From: Polynucleobacter sp. MWH-UH2A
Lineage (GTDB): Bacteria > Pseudomonadota > Gammaproteobacteria > Burkholderiales > Burkholderiaceae
Reading direction: 5' to 3'
Length of the DNA: 64,000 nucleotides
NCBI RefSeq assembly: GCF_018687195.1
Contig: NZ_CP061321.1
Coordinates: 1,488,001-1,552,000 of the forward strand
The notes under the pieces were generated by a model that was given only the letters and a program-made list of their open reading frames with translations, did no database searches and had not been told where the DNA came from. Positions 8,246 to 30,351 of this stretch are shown one piece after another (position 1 is the stretch's first letter; the number at the start of each line of letters is the position of its first letter). Both the position numbers and the translations under genes were made by a program.

Positions 8246-8965
8246 CTAGACAACTAACTCACTGAAATATTCATATTGATGCGTATTCAGTGTTGAGACA
8301 CGCCACTCTAATGGCTCATCCTGCATACCAAGTGCGACCCTACGGATGATGAGGACTGGAGAATTTGGCTTTAGACCCAACCACTCTGAATACTGCTTTC
8401 CTGCTAGGCCCGCTCTTAAACGCTCACTACTTCGCACAACTGTTTGACCGTACTTCATTTGATACAACTGGTAAATACTGCCTTCACGCTGAATAAAGTC
8501 GGTGCGAGTGAGATTTTTGAAACGTCTTTTATCTAGAGTGATATGGTCAATCATGACGCATTTTTCATCTAGATATAGGCAATTTATTAAACGCCAAACG
8601 GGTGAGCCTTCTTTGATCTGGAGTTTAATTGCCTCTTCTTTGCTCGCAATAGCAGAATTCAAAGAAACTAAATCTACTCGTGGATTAATTTTCTTGTCAG
8701 CATCATGCTTAACAACATGAAAAAAGTAATACAGCAGGCGCTTAACATCATGCTCGGCAACAAAAGTGCCTTTACCTTGTCGGCGAACCACAATGCCCTC
8801 TGCTACTAATTCATCAACCGCTTTGCGTAGCGTGCCAATCGAAACATCTAATTCTTTAGATAAATCCTTTTCGGCAGGCAAAGCCTGCCCCATAGGAAAA
8901 CGACCCCTGACCAGATCTTCGGTGATCTTTTGCTTTACCTCTTGATAAGCAGTCAGGGATCTCAT
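8246..8965 (-). CDS. GntR-family (HutC/UTRA) transcriptional regulator
   Basis: Residues about 10-75 form a winged helix-turn-helix (DLSKELDVSIGTLRKAVDEL, then GKGTFVAE), and the rest is a UTRA ligand-binding domain typical of the HutC subfamily (239 aa in all). It sits inside the operon, 7 bases after suyB and 5 before suyZ, so it is probably expressed with its targets. It is the likely local regulator of the sulfolactate genes and could bind the perfect inverted repeat at 12434-12463. An OrfR regulator next to suyAB is known in Paracoccus; whether it is orthologous is not clear. Confidence 0.88.
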   Translation of the reverse strand: MRSLTAYQEVKQKITEDLVRGRFPMGQALPAEKDLSKELDVSIGTLRKAVDELVAEGIVVRRQGKGTFVAEHDVKRLLYYFFHVVKHDADKKINPRVDLVSLNSAIASKEEAIKLQIKEGSPVWRLINCLYLDEKCVMIDHITLDKRRFKNLTRTDFIQREGSIYQLYQMKYGQTVVRSSERLRAGLAGKQYSEWLGLKPNSPVLIIRRVALGMQDEPLEWRVSTLNTHQYEYFSELVV

Positions 8966-8972: not shown

Positions 8973-10145
8973 TTAAGCAGATTCATACAAGCGAGTTAAT
9001 ACAAACTCACGGTGACCGAGAATCTCAGAAGCAGTTAACTCACCATCTGCTGTACGCAAAAGGCATTCCAACAACTTATCGCCAGCCTGATCCATATTTT
9101 CTTCACGACGCAAAATACCTGACACGTCAACGTCAATATGCTCACTCATAGTACGAACAGTTTTTGGATTCGCGCAAATCTTAATTACTGGAAGAATTGC
9201 ATTGCCAATCACGTTACCTTGGCCCGTTGGGAAGAAATGCGCTGCAAAACCAGCCGCTGCACATAAGGTCACCATCTCTGCTGCCGCTGATGAGGAGTCC
9301 ATAAAATGCAAGCCAGGAATGCTAGGCGTTTCGGCCTTATCCAATACGCTATCCACGATACATTTCTTACCAATTTTCTGGATGTTACCCAAGGCTTTTT
9401 CTTCGATAGTCGTGAGACCACCGGCAATATTTCCCTTGGTTGGTTGGGAATCAGAAAGATCGCTCGTTTTATGACGCTCAATCACGTCCTGGTAACGATC
9501 AAACATTTCGCGGAACTTTTTCTTTACCTCGTCATTGCGGCAACGCGCTTCAACCAAATGCTCGCCACCAGTTAATTCGGTTGTTTCACCAAAAACCAGG
9601 GTTGAACCAATTCCGTATAACTTATCAAAAGCATCGCCTACGGTTGGATTTGCACCGCAACCAGAAGTAGTATCTGACTCACCGCATTTTGTGGATACCC
9701 ACAATTCGGATAGAGGAGCCTTAACACGCTGCTGCTTTGAAGCATGCTTCATCATTTTGTATGCCGCTTTGCTTGCAGAAGCAATCGTAGCGGTATCGCC
9801 ATTGCCTTCAATCCAGAAACCTTCAACTGGTTTGCCTGATGCTTTAATTCCATCTACTACGATCTTGGTCCACTGCGGTTCGATACCAATGACCACGACA
9901 CCAGCAACGTTTGGATTCGATCCAGTTCCAATCAATGTACGGAAATGCAACTCTAAGTCCGCGCCAAACTGTAAACGGCCATAAGAGTGTGGAATTGCCA
10001 TCGTGCCCTTGATGTTATTGGCAACAGCTTCGCAAGCCGCATTAGACAAGTCATCTAAAGGCAAAATTAATACATGATTACGGATACCCATACGACCGTT
10101 CTCGCGACGGTAGCCCATAAAGGTTGCATCTTTTAAATTAATCAT
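8973..10145 (-). CDS. suyB: (2R)-sulfolactate sulfo-lyase, large (beta) subunit
   Basis: The enzyme cleaves (R)-3-sulfolactate to pyruvate and sulfite in the cytoplasm. At 390 aa (about 42 kDa) it matches the reported beta subunit. It belongs to the altronate/galactarate dehydratase family; residues 153-167 ([15 protein letters not shown]) and the later [12 protein letters not shown] carry the conserved metal and substrate residues. The alternative, an UxaA-type sugar acid dehydratase, is less likely because UxaA is normally fused to its SAF domain, while here the SAF domain is a separate gene and all the neighbours fit sulfolactate metabolism. Confidence 0.87.
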
Positions 10146-10181: not shown

Positions 10182-10463
10182 TTACCAACGCTTTGTTTTA
10201 ACGTTCTGAACATGGAGGTGCTCGCCTTTTTTAATAGGGGCAACTACCTTGCCAATATCAATGCCATATTTCATGACCGTATCGCCTGGCTGAAAATCCT
10301 TTAAAGAAATTTTGTGGCCAATTGGAATATCACTCATTGATTTAAAGTTCAATGTCAGATCACCATCCATCACCCAACCTATTAAATCGTCACCAGCTTT
10401 AACGCCCTCAACGACAACCACGCCTACGCCATCACCTGGCTCATGCACGACAAAATGGATCAT
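10182..10463 (-). CDS. suyA: (2R)-sulfolactate sulfo-lyase, small (alpha) subunit
   Basis: This 93-residue protein is a stand-alone SAF domain, the N-terminal domain of altronate dehydratases. It ends with GEHLHVQNVKTKRW, a signature of SuyA and related SAF subunits. It forms the complex with SuyB. ATG 10463 has a very strong ribosome-binding site (GAGGAGAAAG). The gene lies 36 bases upstream of suyB and 27 after comC in the same operon. Confidence 0.87.
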   Translation of the reverse strand: MIHFVVHEPGDGVGVVVVEGVKAGDDLIGWVMDGDLTLNFKSMSDIPIGHKISLKDFQPGDTVMKYGIDIGKVVAPIKKGEHLHVQNVKTKRW

Positions 10464-10490
10464 TACTTTCTCCTCGTTAACCCCATTAAA

Positions 10491-11504
10491 TTACGAATTA
10501 CTCCATGACTGACGAATGCCAGCCTGAATTTCTTCTACCACTACTTCAGAAACATTCACACCACTTTTAAAACCGCTAGCACGTTGCTTAAAGCGACGCC
10601 CACCAGGAACGCGTGTGCCGACATCGGCAGATAATTCCTTCAAAAAATCCCGCATTCTTCCGGCAAAAACATTTCCACCTGAAAGGCCTGGGTCAATGGT
10701 TAGCAAAAGTTGGCCAATACGTGGTCGATTTCCTTTTGCATCAAAAAAAGAATCCGCCTCATATGAAAAGCGACTGCCTGATAAGCCAACAACCAAAAGC
10801 TCCACAATCAATGCGAGCAAGGCGCCCTTGTCTCCACCCAACGGAACCATCAAACCCTTTAATCCTTCTTGAGGATCGGTAGTTGGCTTGCCATCAGCAG
10901 TTAAAGCCCAACCCTCAGGAATGGACTCGCCCTTTTTCGCAGCAACCAGCAACTTACCGCGCGCGACTGCTGAAAGAGACATGTCTATTACTAATGGATC
11001 GCGCCCTTGAATTGGAAATGCAGCAGCCAAAGGATTGGTTCCAAACATTGCCTTACTTCCACCAACCATCGGCATGGCAGCTGGAGTGTTACCAAATAGC
11101 AATGAAATATAACCAGCACGAGCAGCAGCTTCAGCGTAATGCCCAGCTACACCAAAGTGATGGCTATTCGTTACAGCAACCAAACCAACACCCGTTTTTG
11201 AAGCTAAATTGACAGATAAATCAGTAGCAAAACGTAGCGCAGGGAATGCAAGACCATCACAGGCATCAACTAAAGCTGCAGAAGTTTTAAATGGGCGAAC
11301 TTTAATTTTAGGGGCTGGCTCTATACGGCTATTTTTTGCATGACCAGCATATTGAGATACTCGCGCCAAACCATGAGAAGCCAAGCCATCTAATTCTGCA
11401 AGCGCTAAGAATTGCGCAGTCTCAAAAGCAGCTTTTTCTCCAATGCCGGCAGCCATCAAACCAGAAGATGCCAACTCGACCATCTGCTCGTAAGACATGT
11501 TCAT
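10491..11504 (-). CDS. comC: Malate/L-lactate dehydrogenase family protein, probable (R)-sulfolactate dehydrogenase ComC
   Basis: The 337-residue protein is of the Ldh_2 (malate/L-sulfolactate dehydrogenase) family; visible hallmarks are LAELDGLASHGLARVSQY near residue 50, NSHHFGVAGHYAE near 113 and MFGTNPLAAAFP. ComC reduces sulfopyruvate to (R)-sulfolactate with NAD(P)H. Together with SlcC it gives the two-dehydrogenase racemisation of sulfolactate described in Chromohalobacter salexigens. Start ATG 11504 is one base after the slcC stop, so translation is coupled. The substrate is inferred from context; other 2-hydroxy acids are possible by family alone. Confidence 0.82.
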   Translation of the reverse strand: MNMSYEQMVELASSGLMAAGIGEKAAFETAQFLALAELDGLASHGLARVSQYAGHAKNSRIEPAPKIKVRPFKTSAALVDACDGLAFPALRFATDLSVNLASKTGVGLVAVTNSHHFGVAGHYAEAAARAGYISLLFGNTPAAMPMVGGSKAMFGTNPLAAAFPIQGRDPLVIDMSLSAVARGKLLVAAKKGESIPEGWALTADGKPTTDPQEGLKGLMVPLGGDKGALLALIVELLVVGLSGSRFSYEADSFFDAKGNRPRIGQLLLTIDPGLSGGNVFAGRMRDFLKELSADVGTRVPGGRRFKQRASGFKSGVNVSEVVVEEIQAGIRQSWSNS

Positions 11505-11505
11505 A

Positions 11506-12435
11506 TCATGCTCCTAAAAACAAGTTAACTTCATCGGCAATCATTTGACTAACTCGGTCGTTACTTTCATGCGTAACGCCAGCAATGTGGGGCGTCAGAA
11601 TCAAATTCTCTATTCCCGAAAAATGACTTAAATCCTTAGCGGGCTCACCAGAAAACACATCCAATGCGGCTCCACCCAAACGACCCGAACGCAAGCACTC
11701 CGCCAAAGCCAGCTCATCCACAATTCCGCCACGGGCGGTATTGATTAAGCAAGCACCCTCTCTCATTTGACCCAAAACATCAGCACTAAATAAGCCTTTT
11801 GTTTCTGGCAACAAAGGTAGGTGAAGCGTTACGGCATCACTTTGAGATAGCAACGAACTTAAGGAAATCAAGGGAACCTCAAACCCTTCCAATGCCACAG
11901 CATTTCCACTTAGCACGGGGTCATAGGCAAGACATTTCAAGCCGAATGCATTAGCTTTTTTGGCAACCACTCGACCAATACTTCCAAAACCTACTATTCC
12001 AATAGTTTTTCCTGAAAACTCGTGATAACCAGAAAAACGGGGGCGAGGCCATTCGCCTTTTAACGTACTAATTGTTGCGGGAATAAACCCTCGCGTTAAT
12101 GCAACGGCTGCGCCAACAACATATTCAGCGACAGATTCAGCATTCGCTCCAGTTGCAGGTATTACCTTAATATTGCGCTTCGCACATGCTGGTAGCTCGA
12201 TATTTTCAAGGCCAACACCAAGGCGACCAACCACCCTCAGTTTCAATGCACCAACAAGCACCTCTTCATTCACTTGGGTTAAGTTACGAACAATTAGGGC
12301 GTCTATATTTTGCACTGCAGCAATTAATGCGGACCGATCCTTATACAACTCGGGTTCGTACGCAACAGAATGCTTAGAACGCAGGGTTTCTAAGGCTTGA
12401 CTTGTAATGAACTCAGAGATCAAAATAGATGACAT
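11506..12435 (-). CDS. slcC: D-2-hydroxyacid dehydrogenase, probable (S)-sulfolactate dehydrogenase SlcC
   Basis: From ATG 12435 the protein has 309 residues with the D-3-phosphoglycerate dehydrogenase fold: Rossmann motif GFGSIG (149-154), NTARGGIVDE and the catalytic His in HIAGVTHE. SlcC oxidises (S)-sulfolactate to sulfopyruvate with NAD+. It is the first gene of the eight-gene operon slcC-comC-suyA-suyB-gntR-suyZ-soxC-cytochrome. An upstream in-frame TTG at 12504 would add 23 residues, but the family N-terminus fits ATG 12435. That ATG has no clear ribosome-binding site and is overlapped by a perfect inverted repeat, so leaderless or hairpin-modulated initiation is possible. Confidence 0.83.
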   Translation of the reverse strand: MSSILISEFITSQALETLRSKHSVAYEPELYKDRSALIAAVQNIDALIVRNLTQVNEEVLVGALKLRVVGRLGVGLENIELPACAKRNIKVIPATGANAESVAEYVVGAAVALTRGFIPATISTLKGEWPRPRFSGYHEFSGKTIGIVGFGSIGRVVAKKANAFGLKCLAYDPVLSGNAVALEGFEVPLISLSSLLSQSDAVTLHLPLLPETKGLFSADVLGQMREGACLINTARGGIVDELALAECLRSGRLGGAALDVFSGEPAKDLSHFSGIENLILTPHIAGVTHESNDRVSQMIADEVNLFLGA

Positions 12436-12463
12436 ATCTAAATCATATAGATGATTTAGATAT
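12434..12463. promoter_or_regulatory. Perfect 13-bp inverted repeat at the slcC start, candidate operator
   Basis: The arms ATATCTAAATCAT (12434-12446) and ATGATTTAGATAT (12451-12463) are perfectly complementary, separated by four bases. The repeat touches the slcC start codon. The size and symmetry suit a dimeric regulator such as the GntR protein of the same operon (inference). It could also form an RNA hairpin that hides the start. Confidence 0.6.
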
Positions 12464-12638
12464 CTTGCAACACCCAATTCATTGTGCAATGCAAATTGAA
12501 TCAATTTCCTTGCACACTGGCTGGAGGAGACGGCAGTTTTACATAAGCTTATTACTATTAAATAGAGGTCAATCTTATTTTTAGATCAAATCAAAGATAA
12601 GATATGAGAATCAAATTAACACCTGGGAGAGCGTAGGC

Positions 12639-13625
12639 ATGTTTAAGCAAGTTTTTCAAAACATAAGCAAATATTTTGTCTATTTTGTTGGGGTCGTTAC
12701 CCTAGTTGCAACACCAATTTCATTTGCGCAAAACTGGCCAACCAAGCCAATTAAACTCGTTATTCCTTTTGCTGCAGGTGGCACCACGGATATTCTTGGT
12801 CGCTTGCTAGCACAGCAACTTTCCAAAGACTTGGGACAAAACGTGATTGTTGAAAATAAGCCAGGCGCTGGTGGCAATATTGCTGCAGAGTATGTGGCTC
12901 AATCACCTGCAGACGGCTACACTATCATGCTGGCATCTGGAAGTATGCTCACCGTAAATCCCAGTCTTTATAAGAAATTGCCGGTGAACTATGCAAAGGA
13001 TTTTGTGTACATCACTAACGTAGCCAGCGGCCCAATGCTTTTATCCGTAAGCACTAAATTGCCAGTAAAAAATCTTGGTGAATTCATTGCATATGCCAAG
13101 ACCAAGGATCTCAACTTTGGCTCTGCCGGCATTGGAAGCCAGGTTCATATGGCGGCAGAGAATCTAACCTACTCCGCCAATATTCCTGCAACTCACGTTC
13201 CCTATAAGGGAGAGTCTGCTGCGCTTAATGATCTTGTCGCAGGACAAATTGATTTCATGGTGGGCAATCTAACTGCAGCTACTGGCTTCGCTAAGGCAGG
13301 TCAAATCAAGCCACTGGCGGTTACTAGCTTAAAGCGCTCCAAACAATTGCCTGATGTCCCGACTGCTGCTGAATCTGGAATCCCTGGATTTGAATCTACT
13401 GGCTGGTTTGGTCTTATAGCCCCTGCTAATACGCCGAAAGCCATTACTGACAAAATCTATGCTGCTACTGTGAAAGCTGTTGGTTCAGAAGCCATGAGAA
13501 ATAGTCTTGATCTCAATGGACTAACTGCGGTCGTAAACACACAGAAAGATTTTGAATCCCAAGTGAAAAATGAATCGCTCGTCTGGGAGAAGGTGATTAA
13601 AGGTCGCAATATTAGCGCGCAGTGA
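12639..13625 (+). CDS. TctC/Bug-family periplasmic solute-binding protein
   Basis: The 328-residue protein has a Sec signal peptide ending around SFAQN and the Bug family pattern WPTKPIKLVIPFAAGGTTD, then ENKPGAGGNIAAEYVA. Bug proteins bind carboxylates, amino acids or sulfonates for tripartite tricarboxylate transporters (TTT). It is divergent from slcC, across a 200-base shared control region, and TTT systems do take up sulfolactate in other bacteria, so sulfolactate is a reasonable guess. No TctA/TctB membrane genes are in the window, so the membrane part must be elsewhere. A terminator follows it. Confidence 0.9.
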   Translation: MFKQVFQNISKYFVYFVGVVTLVATPISFAQNWPTKPIKLVIPFAAGGTTDILGRLLAQQLSKDLGQNVIVENKPGAGGNIAAEYVAQSPADGYTIMLASGSMLTVNPSLYKKLPVNYAKDFVYITNVASGPMLLSVSTKLPVKNLGEFIAYAKTKDLNFGSAGIGSQVHMAAENLTYSANIPATHVPYKGESAALNDLVAGQIDFMVGNLTAATGFAKAGQIKPLAVTSLKRSKQLPDVPTAAESGIPGFESTGWFGLIAPANTPKAITDKIYAATVKAVGSEAMRNSLDLNGLTAVVNTQKDFESQVKNESLVWEKVIKGRNISAQ

Positions 13626-14699: not shown

Positions 14700-16331
14700 A
14701 TGGGCTTAAAAAATAAAAGTGGCGCTAACATATTTGTTGAAACCCTGGGATTGGCAGGCATCAACAAAATATTCACCCTTTCTGGCAACCACATCATGCC
14801 TATTTATGATGCTGTTTTTGGATCAACTATTGATTTGATTCATACACGACATGAAGCAGCCGCCGTACACATGGCAGATGCGTGGGCACGTCTTACTGGA
14901 AAAGTTGGGATAGCTCTTGTTACCGGTGGGCCAGGTCATGCAAATGCCATATCCGCTCTATATACAGCTGGCATGGCTGAATCACCAGTGATCCTTTTTT
15001 CTGGCCATGCCCCTATAGGGCAACTAGGCAAAGGTGCTTTTCAAGAAATGCATCAGGCTGATATTGCGGCACCACTTACTAAGGCTTCTTGGGTATGCGA
15101 AAAACTTGAAAATATTGCAACGGACATTGCAAAAGCAATTCGCATTGCTACATCGGGTAGGCCTGGACCAGTTCATATCAGTCTTCCTACGGATGTTCTG
15201 GAAGCGCTAGCCTCCAACGCTAACAACCTCACAATAAATTCTTTTGCTCCAGAAGCCTCCGCTATTAATTCGACTGAATTAATAGCCTTATTGAATCAGC
15301 TAAAGCAAGCAAAGAAGCCGCTAATACTTGCGGGTCCAATGATGCAATCCAAGAATGGAAGGATTGCACTTCATTCGCTAGAAGATTTTCTTGGAATTCC
15401 ATGTATTGGCATGGAGAGTCCACGTGGTATTGGCGATCCAAGCCTTGGCGCATTCTCTGAAGTACTGAATCAAGCCGATTGCATATTGCTGCTCGGCAAG
15501 AAAGTAGACTTTACTTTGAAATTTGCGCAAAGCCCAGGCATCAAACCAAATTGTATTTTCCTGCAAATTGATCCCGATCAGGATGAGATTGATCGCGCTA
15601 AGAACGCTGTTGGTAGCCGACTATCTAATGTCATAAAGGCCGATATACCAACAGCTATTCAAGCCATCATGAAGCTTGATAGGAACAATCTAGCAAATCT
15701 TGAATGGAAGAACGAAGTTCAAAGCGCAATTCAATTCCGACCTAGCGCTTGGAATGCATTGCCTAAAGCCTCAAATAACATTCACCCCGTTCAAGCATTA
15801 AAACCGCTTCAGCAAATTTTAGACAGTCATCCGGATTCAGTGCTTATTAGCGATGGCGGTGAAATTGGCCAATGGGCACAAGCTTGTCTTAGCGCCCCCA
15901 ATCGCGTAATTAATGGGGTTGCGGGCTCAATTGGATCTGCCTTACCTTTTGCAGTTGCTGCAAGAGTTGCAAAACCCGATGCTCCAATTATCTCAGTCAT
16001 GGGTGACGGCACATTTGGATTTCATAGCGCAGAAATTGACACTGCGGTCCGCTATAAACTTCCCTTTATTTTGGTTGTTGGCAACGATGCCCGCTGGAAT
16101 GCCGAGTATCAAATACAAGTTCGCGAATATGGCAAGGATAGAACGATTGGCTGTGAATTGCTTCCATCGCATTATGAAAAAGTTTGCGAGGCATTCGGTG
16201 GGCACGGTGAGCTAGTGCAACACTCCGATGGAGTACTGCCTGCAGCAAAACGAGCCCTAGAAGCCAACCTTCCCTCCTGCCTTAATATCATGATCGAAGG
16301 GCTTGCCGCACCAAACATAAAGCGTGGCTGA
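14700..16331 (+). CDS. Thiamine diphosphate-dependent enzyme of the acetolactate synthase-like superfamily
   Basis: The 543-residue protein has the three ThDP-enzyme domains: N-terminal Pyr domain with the catalytic glutamate in HTRHEAAAVHMADAWAR (Glu52), central domain, and C-terminal PP domain with GDGTFGF near residue 435 for Mg-ThDP binding. By family it decarboxylates or ligates a 2-oxo acid or splits a 2-hydroxyacyl-CoA. Length and motifs do not identify sulfoacetaldehyde acetyltransferase or sulfopyruvate decarboxylase (which is two short subunits). It overlaps the next gene, a 2-hydroxyacid-type FAD dehydrogenase, by eight bases, so the 2-oxo product of that enzyme is a plausible substrate (inference). 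Confidence 0.82.
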   Translation: MGLKNKSGANIFVETLGLAGINKIFTLSGNHIMPIYDAVFGSTIDLIHTRHEAAAVHMADAWARLTGKVGIALVTGGPGHANAISALYTAGMAESPVILFSGHAPIGQLGKGAFQEMHQADIAAPLTKASWVCEKLENIATDIAKAIRIATSGRPGPVHISLPTDVLEALASNANNLTINSFAPEASAINSTELIALLNQLKQAKKPLILAGPMMQSKNGRIALHSLEDFLGIPCIGMESPRGIGDPSLGAFSEVLNQADCILLLGKKVDFTLKFAQSPGIKPNCIFLQIDPDQDEIDRAKNAVGSRLSNVIKADIPTAIQAIMKLDRNNLANLEWKNEVQSAIQFRPSAWNALPKASNNIHPVQALKPLQQILDSHPDSVLISDGGEIGQWAQACLSAPNRVINGVAGSIGSALPFAVAARVAKPDAPIISVMGDGTFGFHSAEIDTAVRYKLPFILVVGNDARWNAEYQIQVREYGKDRTIGCELLPSHYEKVCEAFGGHGELVQHSDGVLPAAKRALEANLPSCLNIMIEGLAAPNIKRG

Positions 16332-17751
16332 AGTGAATCCGCACGACAAATTCATTGAAGAATGCCAACATATTATTGGCGCCCCAAATGTATTGATCTC
16401 TGATTTTGATAAAAAGCCATTCTTAATTGATTGGAGTAAGCGCTATAGCGGAAAAGCAATAGCAGTCTTAAAGCCAAAAACCACTGAAGAAATTTCAGCT
16501 TTAGTACGACTATGTAATCAAGAAAATATTGCCATTACCCCACAAGGTGGCAACACCGGTCTATGTGGGGGCGCAACCCCAAGACCACATGCAAACTCTG
16601 TTGTTCTTAGCACTATTCGCCTAAATACCATTCGAGAGATCGATTTAGATAACGCCACCATTACTGTTGACGCCGGCACAATTCTTTCTCAGGTTCAAGA
16701 AGCAGCATTGAACGCCGGTATGCTATTCCCATTAAGTTTAGCTGCGGAGGGAAGCTGCACAATTGGAGGAAATTTAGGCACCAATGCCGGTGGTGTTCAG
16801 GTGCTGCGATATGGAAACATGCGAGATCTCACTCTAGGACTTGAGGTGGTAACTGCGAGTGGGGATATCTTGCATGGTCTGCGTGGCCTACGCAAAGACA
16901 ATACTGGGTACTCTTTAAAAGATCTTTACATAGGATCAGAGGGTACGCTTGGAATAATTACAGCAGCGACACTGAAGCTCTTTCCGCTACCCCAATCAAA
17001 AGCAACGTCATTAGTTGCCATTAAAAATATTGAGTCAGCTATTAAGTTAATCGAATTGGCTCGCAAAAGATGTAACGCCGATCTCACAGCATTTGAACTC
17101 ATTTCTACCCGCGCCATTGCTTTAATTGAAAGCAAGGCCAAAAATTGGGGATCCACCTTTAGCGCTAAATCCGGTTGGACGATTTTGCTAGAGTTCTCGA
17201 GCATGGAGGATTCAGAACAGAGCCGTTCTCAGCTTGAGATATTACTTACAGAGGCTTTTGAACTAGAGTTAATTGATGATGCCATTATTGCTAACTCAAT
17301 CCAACAGAGCAAAGATTTATGGAGCATTAGAGAAAGCATTCCCGAAGCTCAGTTAAAACTTGGAACCATCATTAAGCACGATATATCCGTACCGATTTCA
17401 AAAATTGCTGACTTTGTTAAAGATACTGAAGTCAAAATTAATGATCGCTGGCCGGATACACAAACCATCATCTTTGGTCATGTTGGCGATGGAAATTTGC
17501 ATTACAACTTAGCCCCTCTGACCGCCGATACACCCTCAACCAGCCTGGAATCAAAGCGACAGGCAATTAATGAGCTTGTTCACAATCAAGTCTACTTACA
17601 CTCTGGATCTTTTTCTGCTGAACATGGCATTGGGCAAGCAAAGAGGGAAGAGCTCCCCTTAAGAAAAGATGCTATTGAGATTGATCTGATGCGTGCAATT
17701 AAAAAAGCTCTTGATCCAAAAAACCTAATGAACCCTGAAAAAATTCTTTAA
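16324..17751 (+). CDS. FAD-linked oxidase of the GlcD/D-2-hydroxyglutarate dehydrogenase type
   Basis: The 475-residue protein has a PCMH FAD-binding domain (PQGGNTGLCGGATP, GGNLGTNAGGVQ) and an FAD-oxidase C-terminal domain (FGHVGDGNLHYN, SAEHGIGQAKREELP). Such enzymes oxidise D-2-hydroxy acids to 2-oxo acids and pass electrons to a quinone or flavoprotein. The GTG start at 16324 lies inside the ThDP gene, so translation is coupled. The stop overlaps the end of the convergent TSUP gene by four bases. The substrate is unknown; the fumarase encoded opposite would make a 2-hydroxy acid, but most fumarase products are L-configured. Confidence 0.85.
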   Translation: MAEVNPHDKFIEECQHIIGAPNVLISDFDKKPFLIDWSKRYSGKAIAVLKPKTTEEISALVRLCNQENIAITPQGGNTGLCGGATPRPHANSVVLSTIRLNTIREIDLDNATITVDAGTILSQVQEAALNAGMLFPLSLAAEGSCTIGGNLGTNAGGVQVLRYGNMRDLTLGLEVVTASGDILHGLRGLRKDNTGYSLKDLYIGSEGTLGIITAATLKLFPLPQSKATSLVAIKNIESAIKLIELARKRCNADLTAFELISTRAIALIESKAKNWGSTFSAKSGWTILLEFSSMEDSEQSRSQLEILLTEAFELELIDDAIIANSIQQSKDLWSIRESIPEAQLKLGTIIKHDISVPISKIADFVKDTEVKINDRWPDTQTIIFGHVGDGNLHYNLAPLTADTPSTSLESKRQAINELVHNQVYLHSGSFSAEHGIGQAKREELPLRKDAIEIDLMRAIKKALDPKNLMNPEKIL

Positions 17752-18500
17752 GGAATTTGTCGCGCAAGTAAAGTGACGCCAGCAAAAATCAAAATTGATC
17801 CATAAGCTATCCGCATTCCCGCATTACTTAACTTGGTATGCACATGAGTTCCAAGCCAGATCCCAAGAAAAGTTGCCGGCATTAAGCAAATAGCTAACCC
17901 CATTACAGGCCAACTTAGAATCAGGCCTGTCACCAGCATCAAAGTTAGCCGTAGAAATGTCAGCATAAAAATGGCAAATGCCATGGTAGCCCGTAATGCC
18001 TTAGGATCGTTGATGCGCAAGCCTAGGTAGGAAACATAAATTGGGCCACCCGTTGCAAATAGCGCCGTAAATGTTCCGCCCAGAAATCCAAATGGAGCAG
18101 CCCACCACTTGCTAATGGGATCAACTATTTCTCGATTTCTTTGCCACAGTACTCGCGCTCCATTTAGTGCAGCAAAACATCCGAGAATAATCAAAAGGGG
18201 TTCGCTTGGGGCCTGAATCAATAAGACGATACCCAAAACCATACCAACTAAACTAAAAGGGAATAACCACTTTAGCTCTTTGAGATTGGCATCCTTTGAG
18301 GATTTTTTTCCAACATATAAGGAAGCACAAATATCGACAATCACCATCATTGGTACTACAGACTTCAATGGATACATCTGCACCAGTAATGGGACTGCAA
18401 CAATGGATGAGCCAAACCCTGAAATGCCAAAAATAAAGTAAGCGCCAAAAATTATTAGCGTCGCTAATACAAAGTGGACGGGATCAATTAATTCAAAAAT
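17748..18500 (-). CDS. TSUP (TauE/SafE) family anion exporter
   Basis: TSUP proteins are membrane carriers linked to export of sulfite, sulfoacetate and related anions. The frame shows GFGSSIVAVPLLV near its N-terminus and about seven to eight hydrophobic segments. From the first conventional start (GTG 18383) the protein would lack its first helix. The frame is open up to 18509 and encodes the missing part (FVLATLIIFGAYFIFGISGFG), but with no ATG, GTG or TTG; an ATT at 18498-18500, one base after the stop of the previous gene, is the best candidate start. It is the last gene of the SDH-like/fumarase operon. Confidence 0.8.
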   Translation of the reverse strand: MFELIDPVHFVLATLIIFGAYFIFGISGFGSSIVAVPLLVQMYPLKSVVPMMVIVDICASLYVGKKSSKDANLKELKWLFPFSLVGMVLGIVLLIQAPSEPLLIILGCFAALNGARVLWQRNREIVDPISKWWAAPFGFLGGTFTALFATGGPIYVSYLGLRINDPKALRATMAFAIFMLTFLRLTLMLVTGLILSWPVMGLAICLMPATFLGIWLGTHVHTKLSNAGMRIAYGSILIFAGVTLLARQIP

Positions 18501-18501
18501 A

Positions 18502-20223
18502 TTATGTCTCTACTAATATTGTTTGGCCTGGCTTAATCATCGTAAATTGAACCGGCTGATTTTGAATGCTCAATCTGTCTTGACTCAGGTTTACGGCAGT
18601 GTAATACGAATCCTCTAGCGAGCCTGGCTCGGGGAAATCATCGCGATAGTGAGCCCCACGAGAATTCTCTCTGGATAAAGCGGCTTCAGTTACGGCCTGA
18701 CTAACCAAAATCAAATTCTGCAAATTCATCCAGTCCTGCCAGGTATTACTGTACTCGCGCTGAATATTACCAACACCCATTTGTTTCAACTGAGATGCCA
18801 GCTCTTGAAGGCGCTGACGTGCGCGCAATAAGCTGTCTTTTGTTCTTGAAATACCGACCTCATCCCACATACACTCTGCTAATGCATCGCGAATCAGCTC
18901 GATATCTCCAGCCTCCTTCTTTAGGGGCTCTTCATGCAGACGAATACTAGCGGCCACTTCATCCAAATCGCATTCGCGTAATTCTTGCGAACTAACCCAC
19001 TGTGCCATTGACTCGCCAGCTATGCCTCCAAATACAGTTGAGTTTGCAACCCCATTTCCACCCAGACGATTAGCGCCATGCACTCCACCGGTATCTTCAC
19101 CAGCTGCAAACAGCCCAGGAAGATCTGTGCTGCAATCCTTTTTGAAAACTAAACCGCCCATCATGTAATGGGCTGTGGGCACCACTTCCACCAAGTTATT
19201 AGCTAGGTCGAAGCCGCTATCTGCGCATCGTTCTACCATTCCCTTAAATTGCTTACGAACATTCTCTGGGCCTAAATGACTCATTTGGATATAAACACCG
19301 CCATTCGGAGTGGCACGCCCAGCGCGAATCTCTGAATTAATCGATCTTGAAACAATATCTCTTGTGGCGCGTTCATTACGTGGATCGTAGTTACCCATGA
19401 AGCGCTCTTTATTTCCATTCAAGAGATACCCACCTGCACCACGCAAACCTTCTTCCAGCACTGTGCCTGTCATGCGAGTGCCGGGACCAGCCAATAAGCC
19501 GGTTGGATGAAACTGAACCATTTCCATATCGCGCAAAGTTAAACCTGCACGCAATGCCATCGCCAAGCCATCGCAACTCTTATCCCCAGATGGCGTGTGA
19601 TACCTGTACATCGTTGGTCCGCCACCAGTTGCCAGTAATACTGCTTTGGCACGGACTAATACAAATTGCCCAGTTTGCATATCGAGCATCAAAACGCCCG
19701 CAAGCGCTTTGCCATCTTTGCTATGTATCAACTCAATAGCACGATGCTCTTCGAGACGATGAATCCCTCTTGACCAAACCTGCTCAGCAAGGCGATTAAT
19801 AATTTCAATTCCAGTTAAATCACCTTTATGCACAGTGCGATCAAAGGTCTGCCCTGCAAATGCCTTTTGATGAACAGTACCATCAGGATTGCGGTCAAAA
19901 AAGCATCCCAATTCATTCTCTAGCTCATGAATACGTTCAACCGCCTTGCTGACCAATGTCCAGGCGAGCTCCTGATTGGACAACCACTTGCCACCTTCAA
20001 TCGTATCCATAAAATGGCGCTCAACAGAATCGCCTTCAGCAAGTGCGACGTTATATCCACCCTGAACCATGCGGGTACAACCACACTTACCCAACAATCC
20101 CTTTACCGCAATGGTGATATCTAATTGTGGGTTTGCCTGATGAGCGTGTAACGCCGCAAATAATCCTGCGCCACCCGATCCTAGAATCAAAATATCGGTA
20201 TCAATGGTTGGAATGCTGCTCAT
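18502..20223 (-). CDS. Fumarate reductase/succinate dehydrogenase-like flavoprotein subunit
   Basis: The 573-residue protein has the FAD-binding GSGGAGLFAALHA (residues 15-27), the active-site region HPTGLLAGPG...TGTVLEEGLRGAGG, NERATRDIVSRSI, and HYMMGG, as in SdhA/FrdA. At the position of the histidine that binds FAD covalently in SdhA/FrdA it has Cys49 (GCTRMVQGG), so FAD is probably non-covalent, as in L-aspartate oxidase. In E. coli FrdA that histidine is needed for succinate oxidation, so the substrate or direction may differ. It overlaps the fumarase beta gene by four bases. The SdhB- and SdhC/D-like partners are in the same operon. Confidence 0.85.
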   Translation of the reverse strand: MSSIPTIDTDILILGSGGAGLFAALHAHQANPQLDITIAVKGLLGKCGCTRMVQGGYNVALAEGDSVERHFMDTIEGGKWLSNQELAWTLVSKAVERIHELENELGCFFDRNPDGTVHQKAFAGQTFDRTVHKGDLTGIEIINRLAEQVWSRGIHRLEEHRAIELIHSKDGKALAGVLMLDMQTGQFVLVRAKAVLLATGGGPTMYRYHTPSGDKSCDGLAMALRAGLTLRDMEMVQFHPTGLLAGPGTRMTGTVLEEGLRGAGGYLLNGNKERFMGNYDPRNERATRDIVSRSINSEIRAGRATPNGGVYIQMSHLGPENVRKQFKGMVERCADSGFDLANNLVEVVPTAHYMMGGLVFKKDCSTDLPGLFAAGEDTGGVHGANRLGGNGVANSTVFGGIAGESMAQWVSSQELRECDLDEVAASIRLHEEPLKKEAGDIELIRDALAECMWDEVGISRTKDSLLRARQRLQELASQLKQMGVGNIQREYSNTWQDWMNLQNLILVSQAVTEAALSRENSRGAHYRDDFPEPGSLEDSYYTAVNLSQDRLSIQNQPVQFTMIKPGQTILVET

Positions 20224-20831
20224 GAATGAATTCCCAAGCTCTTCAGAACAGCATCCTTGTTGCGCGCTACATCCCCTTTGACTTCTTGATAAATACTGCC
20301 ACCATGACTATCCATTGCCACTAACAGCGGCCCAAAGTCTTTGATCTTGAAACGCCACAGGGACTCAGGATTGAGATCATCCATGTCCACATCCTCAATT
20401 TGCTCGATCCAGGTAGTTTCCAAAGCCGCAGTGCCGCCAATAATGGCGAGATAGACGCCGCCTAACTCTTGAAAAGCTTGAGAAGAACCCTCACGCATAC
20501 CACCCTTGCCAACAATCATGCGTACGCCATTTTGCGTCATCAGGGGTTTAGTAAAGCGTTCCATGCGATCTGATGTAGTCGTACCAATACAGATAGGTTG
20601 ATAGCCTGCAGGAAACTCTGAATTCACAGGAACCTTACGCACATTCGGTGCAGTATGAATTACGGCATGACCATTCAAATCAAAGCGGGTCTTACGACCG
20701 TGATCAAACATATGAATTTGAGTTGCATCACGAATGCCAAAGAGCGTATTTTGCAGAGTAACCGTATCGTTAATACGAAGTTTACGAATATCTTCTTCAC
20801 TCACAGGAGTTGGGAGGTTGTAATGAGCCAT
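20220..20831 (-). CDS. Class I fumarase/tartrate dehydratase, beta subunit
   Basis: The 203-residue protein is the C-terminal (beta) half of iron-sulfur class I fumarases; GTTTSDRMERF and MIVGKGGMREG are the family signatures. With the alpha subunit it hydrates fumarate or a substituted analogue (mesaconate, or tartrate in the dehydration direction). It lies 9 bases after the alpha gene and overlaps the flavoprotein gene by four bases. Sequence alone does not separate TtdB, mesaconase and fumarase. Confidence 0.87.
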   Translation of the reverse strand: MAHYNLPTPVSEEDIRKLRINDTVTLQNTLFGIRDATQIHMFDHGRKTRFDLNGHAVIHTAPNVRKVPVNSEFPAGYQPICIGTTTSDRMERFTKPLMTQNGVRMIVGKGGMREGSSQAFQELGGVYLAIIGGTAALETTWIEQIEDVDMDDLNPESLWRFKIKDFGPLLVAMDSHGGSIYQEVKGDVARNKDAVLKSLGIHS

Positions 20832-20840
20832 AGCCTCTTT

Positions 20841-21716
20841 CTAAAAACCGAAATTGACACCAGAAGGTGTAATCGTCGCACGTGCTCTACGAGCAGAATG
20901 GCATTGCATATTGACTGCCACTGGATTTAAGGTGATGTGGGTATGAGCCAACTCGACATGGACAGCAAAGGCAGTACCATCGCCGCCCAATCCCTGAGGA
21001 CCAATCCCTAATTTATTTACAGCGGCACTTAACTCTCTCTCAAGCTTGGCACCTTCCTCGTCAGAACATGTACTACCCAAAGCACGAGTCGCAGCACGCT
21101 TTGCCATTGCGACACATTGATCAGATGTTCCACCAATACCAACTCCCACGATGGTTGGTGGGCAAGTCTTACCGCCAGCAGATACAACACTTTCAATAAC
21201 AAATGCCTTGACCCCACTAATACCATCAGCAGGAATTGCCATTTTTAAAAAGGAATTGTTCTCTGAGCCACTTCCTTTTGGCACCATCTCAATTTCTACC
21301 GATTCCACATCATCACAAAAATCAATATGAATTGCAGGCATATCAATACCGCATGAGGTGTGATTATTTTTACGTGTAATAGGATGAACTACGGAAGATC
21401 TCAATGGGTACTCTTTAGTAGCACGCTCACAACCCTTACGAATAGCCGCTTTTAAAGCCATTCCATCAAATTGAACATTGCTACCAATTTTTACGTTATA
21501 GATCGGCAGGCCAGTATCTTGGCAGAGAAGATTATCTTCACGCTCTGCAACTGAGATATTCGTAATCATGGTTTTCAAAACAACCTGCGCTCGCTTATCC
21601 GTTTCAGACTTGTCGAGCTGATCAATGCCGGCTTTGATGTCATCAGGAAGTATTTTTAAGGCTCGAATGTAAAGCTCTTTACAAGCCTCTTCAACCAAAT
21701 TCATTTGTAACTGCAT
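20841..21716 (-). CDS. Class I fumarase/tartrate dehydratase, alpha subunit
   Basis: The 291-residue alpha subunit carries the 4Fe-4S cluster of class I hydro-lyases; cluster cysteines are visible in LLCQDTGLPI, in NHTSCGIDMP and in KTCPPTIVGVGIGG. It is encoded 10 bases after the SDH-like membrane subunits. The gene pair inside an SDH-like operon suggests that the alkene made by the flavoprotein complex is passed straight to a hydratase. Fumarase, mesaconase and tartrate dehydratase all remain possible. Confidence 0.87.
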   Translation of the reverse strand: MQLQMNLVEEACKELYIRALKILPDDIKAGIDQLDKSETDKRAQVVLKTMITNISVAEREDNLLCQDTGLPIYNVKIGSNVQFDGMALKAAIRKGCERATKEYPLRSSVVHPITRKNNHTSCGIDMPAIHIDFCDDVESVEIEMVPKGSGSENNSFLKMAIPADGISGVKAFVIESVVSAGGKTCPPTIVGVGIGGTSDQCVAMAKRAATRALGSTCSDEEGAKLERELSAAVNKLGIGPQGLGGDGTAFAVHVELAHTHITLNPVAVNMQCHSARRARATITPSGVNFGF

Positions 21717-21726
21717 ATCAACCTAA

Positions 21727-22089
21727 TTAGTTAGCTAAAGATAAAAATAGAAGTCCGCATGCGATAGCAAACAAGATAGAAACCTGAATCCACCCTTTAC
21801 GCAAACCATGCCATGGTCCAAATTCAATCATGAGCAGACGAACACCGCCAGCCAAATGAATCGCAAGCAGAATGACAAGCGTCCACTCCCCAAACTTAAA
21901 CACCCAAAAATCAGTCAAACCAAGAGATTTCTGAAATCCCTCCGCACCCCTCAATGATTGTGACAACATCAAAAAATGCAAGGGAATAAAGCAGGCTAAA
22001 ACTAAGCCTGAGAATCGGTGACAAGCATAGGCAAAATAAGACAAGTGGCGCTTTGCCCGAATATCCAGCTTTGGTCTAGATCTCATCAA
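21727..22089 (-). CDS. SDH/FRD-like cytochrome b membrane subunit (second)
   Basis: A 120-residue protein with three membrane segments and candidate haem ligands in YACHRFSGLVLACFIPLHFL and IHLAGGVRLL, as in SdhC-type subunits. The N-terminus is positively charged (MRSRPKLDIRAKRH) as expected for the cytoplasmic side. It overlaps the preceding membrane-subunit gene by four bases. It would anchor the flavoprotein/iron-sulfur pair and exchange electrons with quinone. Confidence 0.82.
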   Translation of the reverse strand: MMRSRPKLDIRAKRHLSYFAYACHRFSGLVLACFIPLHFLMLSQSLRGAEGFQKSLGLTDFWVFKFGEWTLVILLAIHLAGGVRLLMIEFGPWHGLRKGWIQVSILFAIACGLLFLSLAN

Positions 22090-22430
22090 ACGCCCCCTGT
22101 GAATACACCACAGACCGCTACTGTGCCCAAGACCAATATTAAGATCGCCAACAAAGTTGAGATCGGCTTTGCCAATCCGCTATTGGGAAAGGTTTCCTGA
22201 AGAATATTTGCAACACCTATAGGCGCATGCACAAAACAGGCGAGCACAAAAGTCTCATAAAAAATTGCAAGCCCGATGTTTCCCTGGGTGCGCCCCAAAA
22301 TCTCTTGTGCGCTCAACCCGCCTCGTATCGCATAAAAAATGATTAGCAAATGAATAGCGACGCAGATACCAAGAACCATAGCGCTAATTCGTTGCGCATA
22401 CCAAAGCTTTGCCTGCAGTACGCCACTCAT
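22086..22430 (-). CDS. SDH/FRD-like membrane subunit (first)
   Basis: This 114-residue protein has three hydrophobic segments; the first contains RISAMVLGICVAIHLL with a histidine placed like a haem ligand of succinate:quinone oxidoreductases. It overlaps both neighbours by four bases, so the iron-sulfur subunit and both anchors are translationally coupled. Two separate anchor genes indicate a C/D-type complex. Confidence 0.82.
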   Translation of the reverse strand: MSGVLQAKLWYAQRISAMVLGICVAIHLLIIFYAIRGGLSAQEILGRTQGNIGLAIFYETFVLACFVHAPIGVANILQETFPNSGLAKPISTLLAILILVLGTVAVCGVFTGGV

Positions 22431-23158
22431 AACTTACCCCACTTACTACCACGTACAGCCGATTTTGCAATTAATTTTTTCAACCCAGCAATGCTTGCTG
22501 TTGGCTCAATCGCCTTAGGACAACGGTCAGTACAGGATCCTTGGGTATGGCATGCGTGACAACCTGCATCACCCGCAACAGCACGCATCCGCTCAATCTG
22601 CTGCGTATCCCGAATATCATTCGCCAGAGTCCATGCGCGGTTAAGGGCAGCGGGACCAAGATAGTTTGGTCTAGCTTCAACTACTTCACAGGAAGCATAA
22701 CAAACACCGCAACCAATGCACTCTATTCCAGCATTTGCCAATTGACGCTCTTTAGAATCTGGCTCAACTTTTGCAAAATCATCATGCCGTGTTTGATTGC
22801 CCTTAAAAAACCCAACTGCGCCCTTCCATTTATTGAAGAACTCACGCATATCCGTTGCAAGGTCTTTAATAACTGGCAGGTTATTCAACGGCGCTATTTC
22901 TAGAGCGTCTCCTTCCACAATTTGAGATACGTGGGTTCTGCAAGTCCATCGCGCAACACCATTAACCGTCATTGCGCATGAACCACACATGCCGACGCGA
23001 CAGGCAAAGCGATAGCTCAGCGTTGAATCTAGTTTGCGCTGGATATAGGTGACCACATCCAAAACCGTTTGATTTGGGTTACGCGGCACCAAATACTCGA
23101 CGAATTCGCCCTCTTGCCCGCCGCGCCAGACTTTTACTTTGAGATCTGCATTTGACAT
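22427..23158 (-). CDS. SDH/FRD-like iron-sulfur subunit
   Basis: The 243-residue protein carries the three-cluster layout of SdhB/FrdB: an N-terminal 2Fe-2S ferredoxin domain (CRVGMCGSCAMTVNG), and C-terminal 4Fe-4S and 3Fe-4S motifs (CIGCGVCYASCE and CHACHTQGSCTDRCPKAIEP). It passes electrons between flavin and quinone. It is the first gene of the seven-gene operon and is divergent from the LysR gene. The order B-C-D-fumarase-A is unlike the housekeeping sdhCDAB operon, so this is a specialised second complex (inference). Confidence 0.88.
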   Translation of the reverse strand: MSNADLKVKVWRGGQEGEFVEYLVPRNPNQTVLDVVTYIQRKLDSTLSYRFACRVGMCGSCAMTVNGVARWTCRTHVSQIVEGDALEIAPLNNLPVIKDLATDMREFFNKWKGAVGFFKGNQTRHDDFAKVEPDSKERQLANAGIECIGCGVCYASCEVVEARPNYLGPAALNRAWTLANDIRDTQQIERMRAVAGDAGCHACHTQGSCTDRCPKAIEPTASIAGLKKLIAKSAVRGSKWGKL

Positions 23159-23213: not shown

Positions 23214-23226
23214 ATAAATTATTTAT
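23214..23226. promoter_or_regulatory. AT-rich palindrome between the lysR and SDH-like operons
   Basis: ATAAAT-T-ATTTAT is a perfect 13-base palindrome lying 14 bases upstream of the LysR start codon, in the 81-base divergent control region. LysR regulators commonly bind T-N11-A palindromes there. The base composition is very AT-rich, so chance symmetry is possible. Confidence 0.35.
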
Positions 23227-23239
23227 TTATAATCGCTAT

Positions 23240-24121
23240 ATGTCTAGCATCCGAATCCTCAAAAACTTCCTAGTGATTGCACGCCACAAGAGCGTTGCCG
23301 CAGCCTCACGTGAAATTGGGCTCACGCCGGCAGCTGCTGGCCAACAAATTCAGCAGCTTGAGGAAGAAATCGGACTGGAGCTTTTTGATCGCACTAAACG
23401 CTCACTTAACTTAAATACGAGTGGTAGGTCCCTGATTGAACCTATCCAAGAAATCATTGCACGATATGAAGCACTTGGCTCAAACTTAAAATCCGACTTA
23501 AGCGGCACCATTGTGATTGGAGCGCTTGTCTCATCACTTATGGGTGCGTTCGGCAAAACATTGAATGAGCTAAAGCTACGCTACCCTGATCTAGAGATCA
23601 AATTATTAGCAGGTCTTTCAAGTAACTTTTTAGACCAAGTCTTAGAAGGCAGCATAGATGGAGCGATTGTTACGGAATCACCATTCACCCTACCCCAAAA
23701 TATCCAGTGGACAGAGCTCTATAGGGAACCGATGATATTGATTACCCCTGCTCTAGAAACAAAGAAAGCTACAAAACCTTCCCCCTCAAAGCTCAAGCTA
23801 CCATTCATTCGATTCGAACGAAACACCTGGACTGGTCATTTGGTCGATCAAACTATTAAAGCAAACAAATTACCCATAGAAGAAAGTATGGAGCTCAATT
23901 CAGTTGAGGCAATTATTGAACTAGTTAGACAGGGGATTGGCTATTCAATCGTTCCTAAGCTAGCCAACATCTCATGGGAAACTGACCGGCAACTTGCCAT
24001 TCAGAAACTACCTGGCAAAACAATTTATAGAAAAGTTGGTTTGTTGGAGCGCAAAAAACATGGTCGACAAAAAATTACCGACGCAATAAAACAGCACTTT
24101 CTATCCCAAATACCCAAATAA
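23240..24121 (+). CDS. LysR-family transcriptional regulator
   Basis: The 293-residue protein has an N-terminal winged helix-turn-helix (AAASREIGLTPAAAGQQIQQLEEEIG, about 18-43, shown here in outline) and a C-terminal periplasmic-binding-like effector domain (NSVEAIIELVRQGIGYSIVP). It is divergent from the SDH-like/fumarase/TSUP operon, the usual position for its activator. The effector is unknown. It ends two bases from the convergent iron-type alcohol dehydrogenase gene. Confidence 0.88.
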   Translation: MSSIRILKNFLVIARHKSVAAASREIGLTPAAAGQQIQQLEEEIGLELFDRTKRSLNLNTSGRSLIEPIQEIIARYEALGSNLKSDLSGTIVIGALVSSLMGAFGKTLNELKLRYPDLEIKLLAGLSSNFLDQVLEGSIDGAIVTESPFTLPQNIQWTELYREPMILITPALETKKATKPSPSKLKLPFIRFERNTWTGHLVDQTIKANKLPIEESMELNSVEAIIELVRQGIGYSIVPKLANISWETDRQLAIQKLPGKTIYRKVGLLERKKHGRQKITDAIKQHFLSQIPK

Positions 24122-24123: not shown

Positions 24124-25275
24124 TCACAACACCTCAGAGTAGATTTCGAATGCATTCTGACGAGTGATCTCTCTTGGACTATTCATTAATAAACGGGTTT
24201 GCAACATTGCGTCATCAGCCAATTGATTTAGATTGGATTCCGCAATACCAACCTCACTTAAACGCTGAGGCAAACCCAATACTCCAGGCAAATCAGCCAA
24301 ATAATCTACCAATTGAGATGCTCGCTCAATAGCACTTCCAGAGGCATTGGGGACTACTATCTCTCCAAGCTCTGAATACATCGAGTGCGCAATCTCCAGA
24401 TTGAATCGCATTACAGGGGCTAGCACCAAGGAGTTTGACAAACCATGTGGTACATGAAATCTTGCGCCAATCGGATAGGCTAAAGCATGAACTCCAGCAA
24501 CTGGAGCGTTTGTAAACGCCATACCCGCAAGGCAAGCTCCGAGCAACATATTTTCTCTAGCAACGATATTGTCACCAGAAAAAACTGCCTCATGAAGGTT
24601 GCTCGATAGCAAACGAAGCGCCTCTTTTGCAAGACAATCAGAGACTGGATTTTTTAAGTGCTTTGTTGTGAACGCTTCAATAGCATGCACCATGGCATCA
24701 ACACCAGTTGCCGCCGTAACATGAGGAGGAAGTCCAAGAGTTAACTCGGCGTCTAGCAGCGCAATATCAGGTAGCAAAACAGGCGAAAGAACACCTTTTT
24801 TCTCACTTTCGCTCACTGTCACAACCGAGCTTTTCGTCACTTCTGACCCAGTGCCAGCGGTAGTTGGAACCAAGATTAAAGGTAATCGAGGACCAGAAAC
24901 TTGATCAATTCCATAAATATCCTCAAGCTTCTCTTTGCCCAAAGCAAGTAATGCAACCAGCTTTGCAACATCCATAGAGCTTCCGCCACCAAAGCCAACA
25001 ATATAGTCAGACTTATATTTCTGCGCCGTCTCGATAGCTTTTTCAATCACAGGAACTGGTGGATCCGCTTGCACATCAGAAAATATTTCTAGCCTGATAT
25101 TTAGCGATTTAAATTGAGGCGTAACGGCGTCCAATAAACCCGCCGCTATAACCCCAGGATCTGTAACGATGAGTACTGAACTACCTCCTCTTTCGCCAAT
25201 TATTTTCGCAAGCTGCGATGAACCGCCGCGTTCAACCAAAATTGAGTTTGTTGAATAAAAATTAAATTTCATCAT
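24124..25275 (-). CDS. Iron-containing alcohol dehydrogenase
   Basis: The 383-residue protein belongs to the group III metal-dependent alcohol dehydrogenases: NAD-binding GGGSSMDVAK, PTTAGTGSEVTKSS and metal ligands in VDAMVHAIEAF and VHALAYPIGARFHVPHG. It is the last gene of the hpsN operon and overlaps the Zn-dehydrogenase gene by four bases. Family members act on primary alcohols, glycerol-like diols and maleylacetate. In this operon a role in DHPS, sulfolactaldehyde or hydroxyacetone-sulfonate interconversion is plausible but unproven. It is not part of the classical hpsNOP set as I know it. Confidence 0.85.
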   Translation of the reverse strand: MMKFNFYSTNSILVERGGSSQLAKIIGERGGSSVLIVTDPGVIAAGLLDAVTPQFKSLNIRLEIFSDVQADPPVPVIEKAIETAQKYKSDYIVGFGGGSSMDVAKLVALLALGKEKLEDIYGIDQVSGPRLPLILVPTTAGTGSEVTKSSVVTVSESEKKGVLSPVLLPDIALLDAELTLGLPPHVTAATGVDAMVHAIEAFTTKHLKNPVSDCLAKEALRLLSSNLHEAVFSGDNIVARENMLLGACLAGMAFTNAPVAGVHALAYPIGARFHVPHGLSNSLVLAPVMRFNLEIAHSMYSELGEIVVPNASGSAIERASQLVDYLADLPGVLGLPQRLSEVGIAESNLNQLADDAMLQTRLLMNSPREITRQNAFEIYSEVL

Positions 25276-26279: not shown

Positions 26280-26287
26280 AAAATTCC

Positions 26288-28401
<2,114 letters not shown>

Positions 28402-28410
28402 TTACTTCTA

Positions 28411-28436: not shown

Positions 28437-28454
28437 AGACTTTCGCAGTTAAAT

Positions 28455-30348: not shown

Positions 30349-30351
30349 AAC

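Follow-up and report, generated by a model that had tools for sequence, protein, structure and literature searches.

Why does a freshwater bacterium that already encodes separate enzymes for succinate oxidation and fumarate hydration carry another set of both in a single operon, together with a predicted anion exporter? We address this question for Polynucleobacter sp. MWH-UH2A (GCF_018687195.1; genome size, 2.02 Mb), in which seven genes on the minus strand, running from position 23158 down to 17748 of the 64,000-nt stretch of DNA analyzed here (the window; forward-strand positions 1,488,001–1,552,000 of NZ_CP061321.1), encode an iron-sulfur (Fe-S) subunit, two membrane anchors, the alpha and beta subunits of a class I fumarase-type enzyme, a flavoprotein, and a TSUP transporter, in that order. 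Gene content, conservation, linkage to the (R)-sulfolactate sulfo-lyase SuyAB, and a remodelled active-site motif are observed directly in the genomes described below; we consider it highly probable that the operon has a sulfonate role and, with moderate confidence, that 3-sulfopropanoate is its substrate.

A complex II-like enzyme and a fumarase-like enzyme in one operon

An earlier note on this DNA had named the seven genes and their order, and all were recovered with family matches: TIGR00384 (above cut-off) for the Fe-S subunit, PF01127 for both anchors, PF05681 and PF05683 for the alpha and beta subunits, PF00890 (FAD_binding_2) and PF02910 (Succ_DH_flav_C) for the flavoprotein, and PF01925 for TSUP. 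The four-base overlaps described in that note hold at two junctions, Fe-S/anchor 1 (22427–22430) and beta/flavoprotein (20220–20223); the anchors meet at TGATG, a 1-base overlap with an ATG start or one of four bases with a TTG start, and the remaining junctions are gaps of 10, 9, and 1 bases. The open reading frame (ORF) listed for TSUP at 17748–18383 is too short, as the frame opens at position 18500 with an ATT codon (18498–18500), 1 base past the flavoprotein stop. This codon is kept in three relatives (loci L023, L025, and L026); translation probably starts there, giving a protein of about 250 rather than 211 amino acids that automatic callers shorten. Since the block recurs in dozens of genomes, the arrangement is not due to chance.

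With its flavoprotein domains, three-cluster Fe-S subunit, two cytochrome-b-type anchors, and retained catalytic His/Arg set (H239, R288, H352, and R386, equivalent to SdhA H242, R286, H354, and R399), the enzyme resembles complex II—that is, succinate dehydrogenase (SDH) or fumarate reductase (FRD)—and the thiol:fumarate reductase TfrA. It differs from complex II not only in its fumarase and SuyAB context, but also at two positions that were invariant among 99 flavoprotein sequences: the covalent-FAD His of the SHT motif is Cys 49 (GCT) in 99/99, and the second-carboxylate Thr (SdhA T254) is Glu257 in 99/99, preceded by a TRMTGT insertion with an invariant R250. The roles of the SdhA residues (one carboxylate held, the Thr at the second carboxylate, and the catalytic Arg) are those of known structures. 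As judged from the motifs, these changes indicate an altered substrate site, not which ligand it binds.

The alpha and beta subunits carry the PF05681 and PF05683 domains of class I fumarases, and the cluster cysteines and substrate Arg, Lys, and His residues of the Leishmania fumarase structure are present. These features are shared with two-subunit fumarases, L(+)-tartrate dehydratase, and mesaconase; unlike those enzymes, the operon pair has sulfonate surroundings, rather than those of the tricarboxylic acid (TCA) cycle or tartrate metabolism, and lacks the beta-subunit RDxAH motif, with RDAAH changed to RDATQ (RDATQ/L/Y across its clade, hereafter type I). Elsewhere, the genome encodes a separate SdhA (33% identical to the operon flavoprotein, with the SHT motif), NadB, and a one-chain class I FumA (longest ORF, 507 amino acids), and the operon genes are thus extra copies. 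With these housekeeping enzymes in place and the motif changes invariant, an ordinary TCA operon was rejected. An L-aspartate or cysteate oxidase (NadB) was likewise rejected: the flavoprotein scores 366 bits against TIGR00551, whose cut-off is 452.75, it is operonic with Fe-S and anchor genes, and such an oxidase has no need of a fumarase.

Linkage to sulfolactate desulfonation and the proposed route

The strongest clue to function lies outside the 17748–23158 span treated in the earlier note, in the tightly linked genes slcC-comC-suyA-suyB (8973–12504). SuyAB was recognized by its arrangement, with adjacent small and large UxaA-type subunits accompanied by SlcC and ComC. Of the NCBIfam assignments in the region, that of the SoxC-type protein exceeds the cut-off, whereas the best matches to models of the ComC, YeiH, and SuyB types fall below the curated thresholds, and these names therefore rest partly on context. 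When 200 genomes of the family were searched for the flavoprotein and SuyB (found in 20 and 35 genomes, respectively), SuyB occurred in all 20 flavoprotein genomes and in 15/180 others (Fisher p = 2e-18), and a genus sample of 151 genomes searched for the same markers gave 61 with both, 5 with the flavoprotein only, 11 with SuyB only, and 74 with neither (p = 1.5e-24), although these p-values overstate independence because the sampled genomes are related to one another. The discordant genus genomes are all in pieces; SuyB is present in 25/25 single-contig flavoprotein genomes, approximately 4–10 kb away by the listed coordinates.

Neighborhoods were counted at the 54 of 80 named loci that span at least 14 kb, with a codon-usage caller applied to high-GC relatives, where longest-ORF picking produced spurious antisense families. 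Here suyAB lies in the flank at 32/54 loci, and 20 of 25 genomes with a suyAB-less flank carry SuyB elsewhere at ≥63% identity. TSUP, whose absence from most relatives the earlier note had named as grounds for refutation, is found at 24/54 and was rejected as a defining member; SuyAB is the better marker. The 2,3-dihydroxypropane-1-sulfonate (DHPS) block was not found in the roughly 20 kb examined of three relatives (L026, L027, and L028), in which the operon, comC, and suyAB are retained, and in another (L041, genome G084) the entire sulfonate island has decayed to fragments together, including soxC, the SDH-like genes, and suyB. The 15 family-sample genomes with SuyB and no operon mark the operon as an add-on feeding SuyAB. 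In the SuyB tree, sequences from operon-bearing genomes form no separate clade and are scattered among those from operon-less genomes, and the SuyB substrate is therefore probably still sulfolactate. Depending on the lineage, the transporters encoded beside or inside the operon are either SsuA-type sulfonate ABC systems or DctA C4-dicarboxylate symporters, a mixture that fits a sulfonate mimic of succinate.

3-Sulfopropanoate is succinate with one carboxylate swapped for a sulfonate, and 3-sulfopropanoate, sulfoacrylate, and (R)-sulfolactate mimic succinate, fumarate, and L-malate, respectively. The geometry of L-malate corresponds to that of (R)-sulfolactate, because Cahn-Ingold-Prelog priorities swap, and the hydratase product could thus enter SuyAB directly. 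In the proposed route, the complex II paralogue would oxidize 3-sulfopropanoate to 3-sulfoacrylate, passing electrons to quinone, and the two-subunit fumarase would hydrate this product at the carbon that bears the carboxylate, forming 3-sulfolactate. The (R)-enantiomer would go straight to SuyAB, with ComC and SlcC interconverting enantiomers where needed, and the sulfite released along with pyruvate would be oxidized by the SoxC-type dehydrogenase or exported via YeiH or TSUP. SuyAB is reported to cleave (R)-sulfolactate (PMC12890257); because the neighboring SuyAB already desulfonates this compound, hydration at the carboxylate-bearing carbon is the economical choice, and because the SDH/fumarase-like pair must then end in sulfolactate, 3-sulfopropanoate is the indicated starting point. 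We infer the substrate, the regiochemistry, the direction of the reactions, and the exporter cargo. The earlier note had anticipated several of these elements: a sulfonate substrate, borne out by the strong link to SuyAB, SlcC, ComC, HpsN, and SsuA-type transporters, as well as desaturation followed by hydration, sulfite release, and TSUP as an anion exporter, all of which we judge to be right.

Several observations weigh against 3-sulfopropanoate as the substrate. Glu at the second-carboxylate position is no obvious fit for a sulfonate pocket, although compensation for Glu257 may come from the insertion's invariant R250, and Cys 49 stands where the covalent-FAD His is missing. A hydratase product that is already (R) would make SlcC and ComC redundant, and a thiamine-diphosphate (TPP) enzyme and an FAD oxidase beside the operon are not accounted for. 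The window holds no genes producing 3-sulfopropanoate, a possible Fe-type alcohol dehydrogenase aside. Finally, SuyB was found nowhere in the genomes of two type I records (L091 and L096), nor in one type I genome (L214) of a phylum-wide sample.

Variant clusters and rival readings

Related clusters in other lineages bear on this choice. On haloarchaeal plasmids, a flavoprotein (49–50% identical) with the same remodelled site, apart from small changes such as Lys for the insertion Arg, is encoded with an Fe-S subunit, an 'argH' product, two UxaA-type subunits (35–37% identity to SuyB, a weak match), and TSUP. The 'argH' product scores above the TIGR00838 ArgH cut-off and also aligns end to end with XcbC (NF052535), at a score below that model's cut-off. 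XcbC1 of bacterial coenzyme M synthesis forms sulfoacrylic acid (PMC8727900), and the filling of the hydratase slot by a non-homologous member of the fumarase superfamily supports a sulfoacrylate intermediate. XcbC thus shares with the proposed hydratase the handling of sulfoacrylate, and a relative of it replaces the fumarase in haloarchaea; it differs in being a biosynthetic lyase of the aspartase/fumarase superfamily that is not homologous to the window's fumarase. Two 'argH' genes adjoining the flavoprotein gene (L156:12200–13702 and L162:12290–13792) look XcbC-like and may encode sulfoacrylate hydratases that have been misannotated.

In clusters with a second clade of class I fumarases (type II; n = 18 loci), the genes run flavoprotein, alpha, beta. 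A SuyB gene lies nearby at 1/18 type II versus 40/71 type I loci, and mmsA at 5/18 versus 0/71, with an amidohydrolase gene distributed likewise. In Pseudomonas MPC6 and at L207, mmsA directly follows the beta gene; the NT-25 cluster has a succinate semialdehyde dehydrogenase-type gene and a sulfolactaldehyde-reductase-like gene. SuyB was present in 4/13 flavoprotein genomes of the phylum-wide sample; eight of the nine without it have the type II fumarase, and the other is L214. Type II enzymes may hydrate the sulfonated carbon, yielding a product that collapses to malonate semialdehyde and sulfite. A homocysteine S-methyltransferase-like gene, judged by eye, sits between the type II alpha and beta genes at L212:7130–8044 (also in L213), and may be a warning that some type II members use another substrate. 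We tentatively entertain, at somewhat less than even confidence, a sulfonate mimic of the TCA cycle in bacteria and haloarchaea, in which one 3-sulfopropanoate dehydrogenase family would be paired with three hydratases, the type I and haloarchaeal XcbC-like enzymes giving sulfolactate for SuyAB and type II giving malonate semialdehyde and sulfite.

Among the rival explanations, sulfosuccinate, put forward in the earlier note, would be oxidized to sulfofumarate and hydrated to 3-sulfomalate, which either SlcC and ComC would oxidize, with decarboxylation to sulfopyruvate and sulfolactate, or SuyAB would directly desulfonate to oxaloacetate. Its two carboxylates suit the SDH/fumarase lineage and the DctA and TctC transporters, and it would give SlcC and ComC a clear job. 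We nevertheless hold it unlikely, as some loci with the operon and SuyAB have no slcC nearby (L026, L050, L053, and L119), the SuyB of operon-bearing genomes forms no clade of its own, the haloarchaeal XcbC-like hydratase and the MmsA beside type II indicate C3 rather than C4 skeletons, and our literature search returned no gene study of sulfosuccinate. The note's ending for this route, collapse of an alpha-hydroxysulfonate to oxaloacetate, is also probably wrong given the adjacent SuyAB, and its other suggestions (methylsuccinate, mesaconate, and tartrate chemistry) have no supporting neighbors.

More generally, hydration at the sulfonated carbon could yield an alpha-hydroxysulfonate that breaks down to an oxo-acid and sulfite for export by TSUP, leaving SuyAB unneeded. 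The type II clusters speak for such chemistry, being mostly without nearby SuyAB and in some cases accompanied by an MmsA-type dehydrogenase, a sulfite dehydrogenase, and exporters, whereas the type I operon of the window co-occurs almost perfectly with SuyAB and is never near mmsA; we regard this explanation as distinctly improbable. Sulfite-tolerant SDH and fumarase isoenzymes, sustaining the TCA cycle while sulfite harms the main enzymes, would account for linkage to any sulfite-releasing pathway and for the full retention of class I fumarase catalytic residues, but are very improbable in view of the invariant substrate-site remodelling, the lost covalent-FAD His, the haloarchaeal clusters in which an XcbC-like protein takes the fumarase's place, and the 15/35 SuyB genomes of the family sample that lack the operon.

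The sulfonate island and its meaning

The operon is embedded in a larger sulfonate island (Table 1). One flank (5384–12504) encodes a SoxC-type sulfite dehydrogenase with a cytochrome c, YeiH, GntR, SuyB, SuyA, ComC, and SlcC; the other (24124–31871) encodes Fe-type and further alcohol dehydrogenases, a short-chain dehydrogenase/reductase, HpsN, and an SsuA-type ABC transporter. HpsN carries H127, E319, H320, D353, and K354, corresponding to His126, Glu318, His319, Asp352, and Lys353, residues published as setting DHPS dehydrogenases apart from histidinol dehydrogenases. The sulfolactate bifurcation by SlcC, ComC, and SuyAB and the DHPS pathway HpsNOP are thus represented by the same genes, adjacent on the chromosome; unlike the operon, which adds a new entry point, they need no desaturation or hydration. 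The Fe-type alcohol dehydrogenase could link 3-hydroxypropanesulfonate to the operon pathway. The TPP enzyme and a GlcD-type FAD oxidase adjoin the operon (14700–17751), with the TPP gene at 24/54 named loci, and a route from sulfolactate through sulfopyruvate to sulfoacetaldehyde is conceivable for the two. A sulfatase gene sits between the anchor and fumarase genes at L098 (5806–7182) and about 10 other betaproteobacterial loci.

Table 1. Features of the operon and its surroundings (window coordinates).
Feature	Position	Strand	Remark
SDH/FRD-type Fe-S subunit, 243 aa (amino acids)	22427..23158	-	three Fe-S cluster ligand sets and extra Cys C203
Membrane anchor 1, 114 aa	22086..22430	-	Sdh_cyt
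Membrane anchor 2, 119 aa from ATG at 22086	21727..22086	-	succ_dehyd_cytB above cut-off
Class I fumarase-type alpha subunit	20841..21716	-	proposed sulfoacrylate hydratase alpha
Class I fumarase-type beta subunit	20220..20831	-	proposed sulfoacrylate hydratase beta
SDH/FRD-type flavoprotein	18502..20223	-	proposed 3-sulfopropanoate dehydrogenase; KxGCTRMVQGG, TRMTGTVLEEG
TSUP (TauE/SafE) predicted exporter, 250 aa	17748..18500	-	probable ATT start
Promoter-like site upstream of operon	23218..23246	-	weak; such sites fewer in region than in shuffles
Divergent LysR regulator	23240..24121	+	probable regulator of operon
SlcC-like (S)-sulfolactate dehydrogenase	11506..12504	-	PGDH family
ComC-like sulfolactate dehydrogenase	10491..11504	-	best NCBIfam match NF040650, below cut-off
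SuyA, (R)-sulfolactate sulfo-lyase	10182..10463	-	small subunit
SuyB, (R)-sulfolactate sulfo-lyase	8973..10145	-	large subunit
GntR regulator of suy block	8246..8965	-	
YeiH-family exporter	7248..8240	-	below cut-off
SoxC-family sulfite dehydrogenase	5910..7169	-	TIGR04555 above cut-off
Cytochrome c partner	5384..5920	-	
TctC-type solute-binding protein	12639..13625	+	candidate uptake component
TPP enzyme	14700..16331	+	recurrent near operon
Fe-type alcohol dehydrogenase	24124..25275	-	candidate 3-hydroxypropanesulfonate dehydrogenase; same Pfam family as HpfD
HpsN, DHPS-3-dehydrogenase	27058..28371	-	published signature His

Bacteria of the gut and the environment produce 3-sulfopropanoate from plant sulfolipid sugar, DHPS, and homotaurine. 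A thesis that PMC11489063 cites reports that Roseovarius nubinhibens converts homotaurine through 3-sulfopropanoate and sulfoacrylate to sulfolactate, the same succession of intermediates as proposed here, with no genes assigned to its steps in the accessible text; that thesis aside, the citing paper describes bacterial 3-sulfopropanoate degradation as not previously reported (PMC11489063). In the proteomics of Paracoccus wurundjeri grown on sulfofucose, a 'fumarate and tartrate metabolism' cluster with a TauE homologue (cluster 3, MDP0926751-0926761) is raised together with SlcC, ComC, and SuyAB (PMC12421959); its genes are possibly the same as those of the operon. P. versutus carries the type II cluster in a setting of this kind. 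In the searchable literature, we found no paper assigning genes to 3-sulfopropanoate breakdown, and a search for sulfosuccinate or sulfoacrylate hydratase genes returned nothing. The component families are known, but this literature offers no precedent for their combination or for the function proposed. If the proposal is true, the operon would be a marker for 3-sulfopropanoate breakdown, supplying the missing genes of a step in the organic sulfur cycle, and would explain a class of 'extra' SDH and fumarase genes currently annotated as TCA cycle enzymes. Complex II and fumarase would then have evolved to accept substrates in which a sulfonate replaces a carboxylate.

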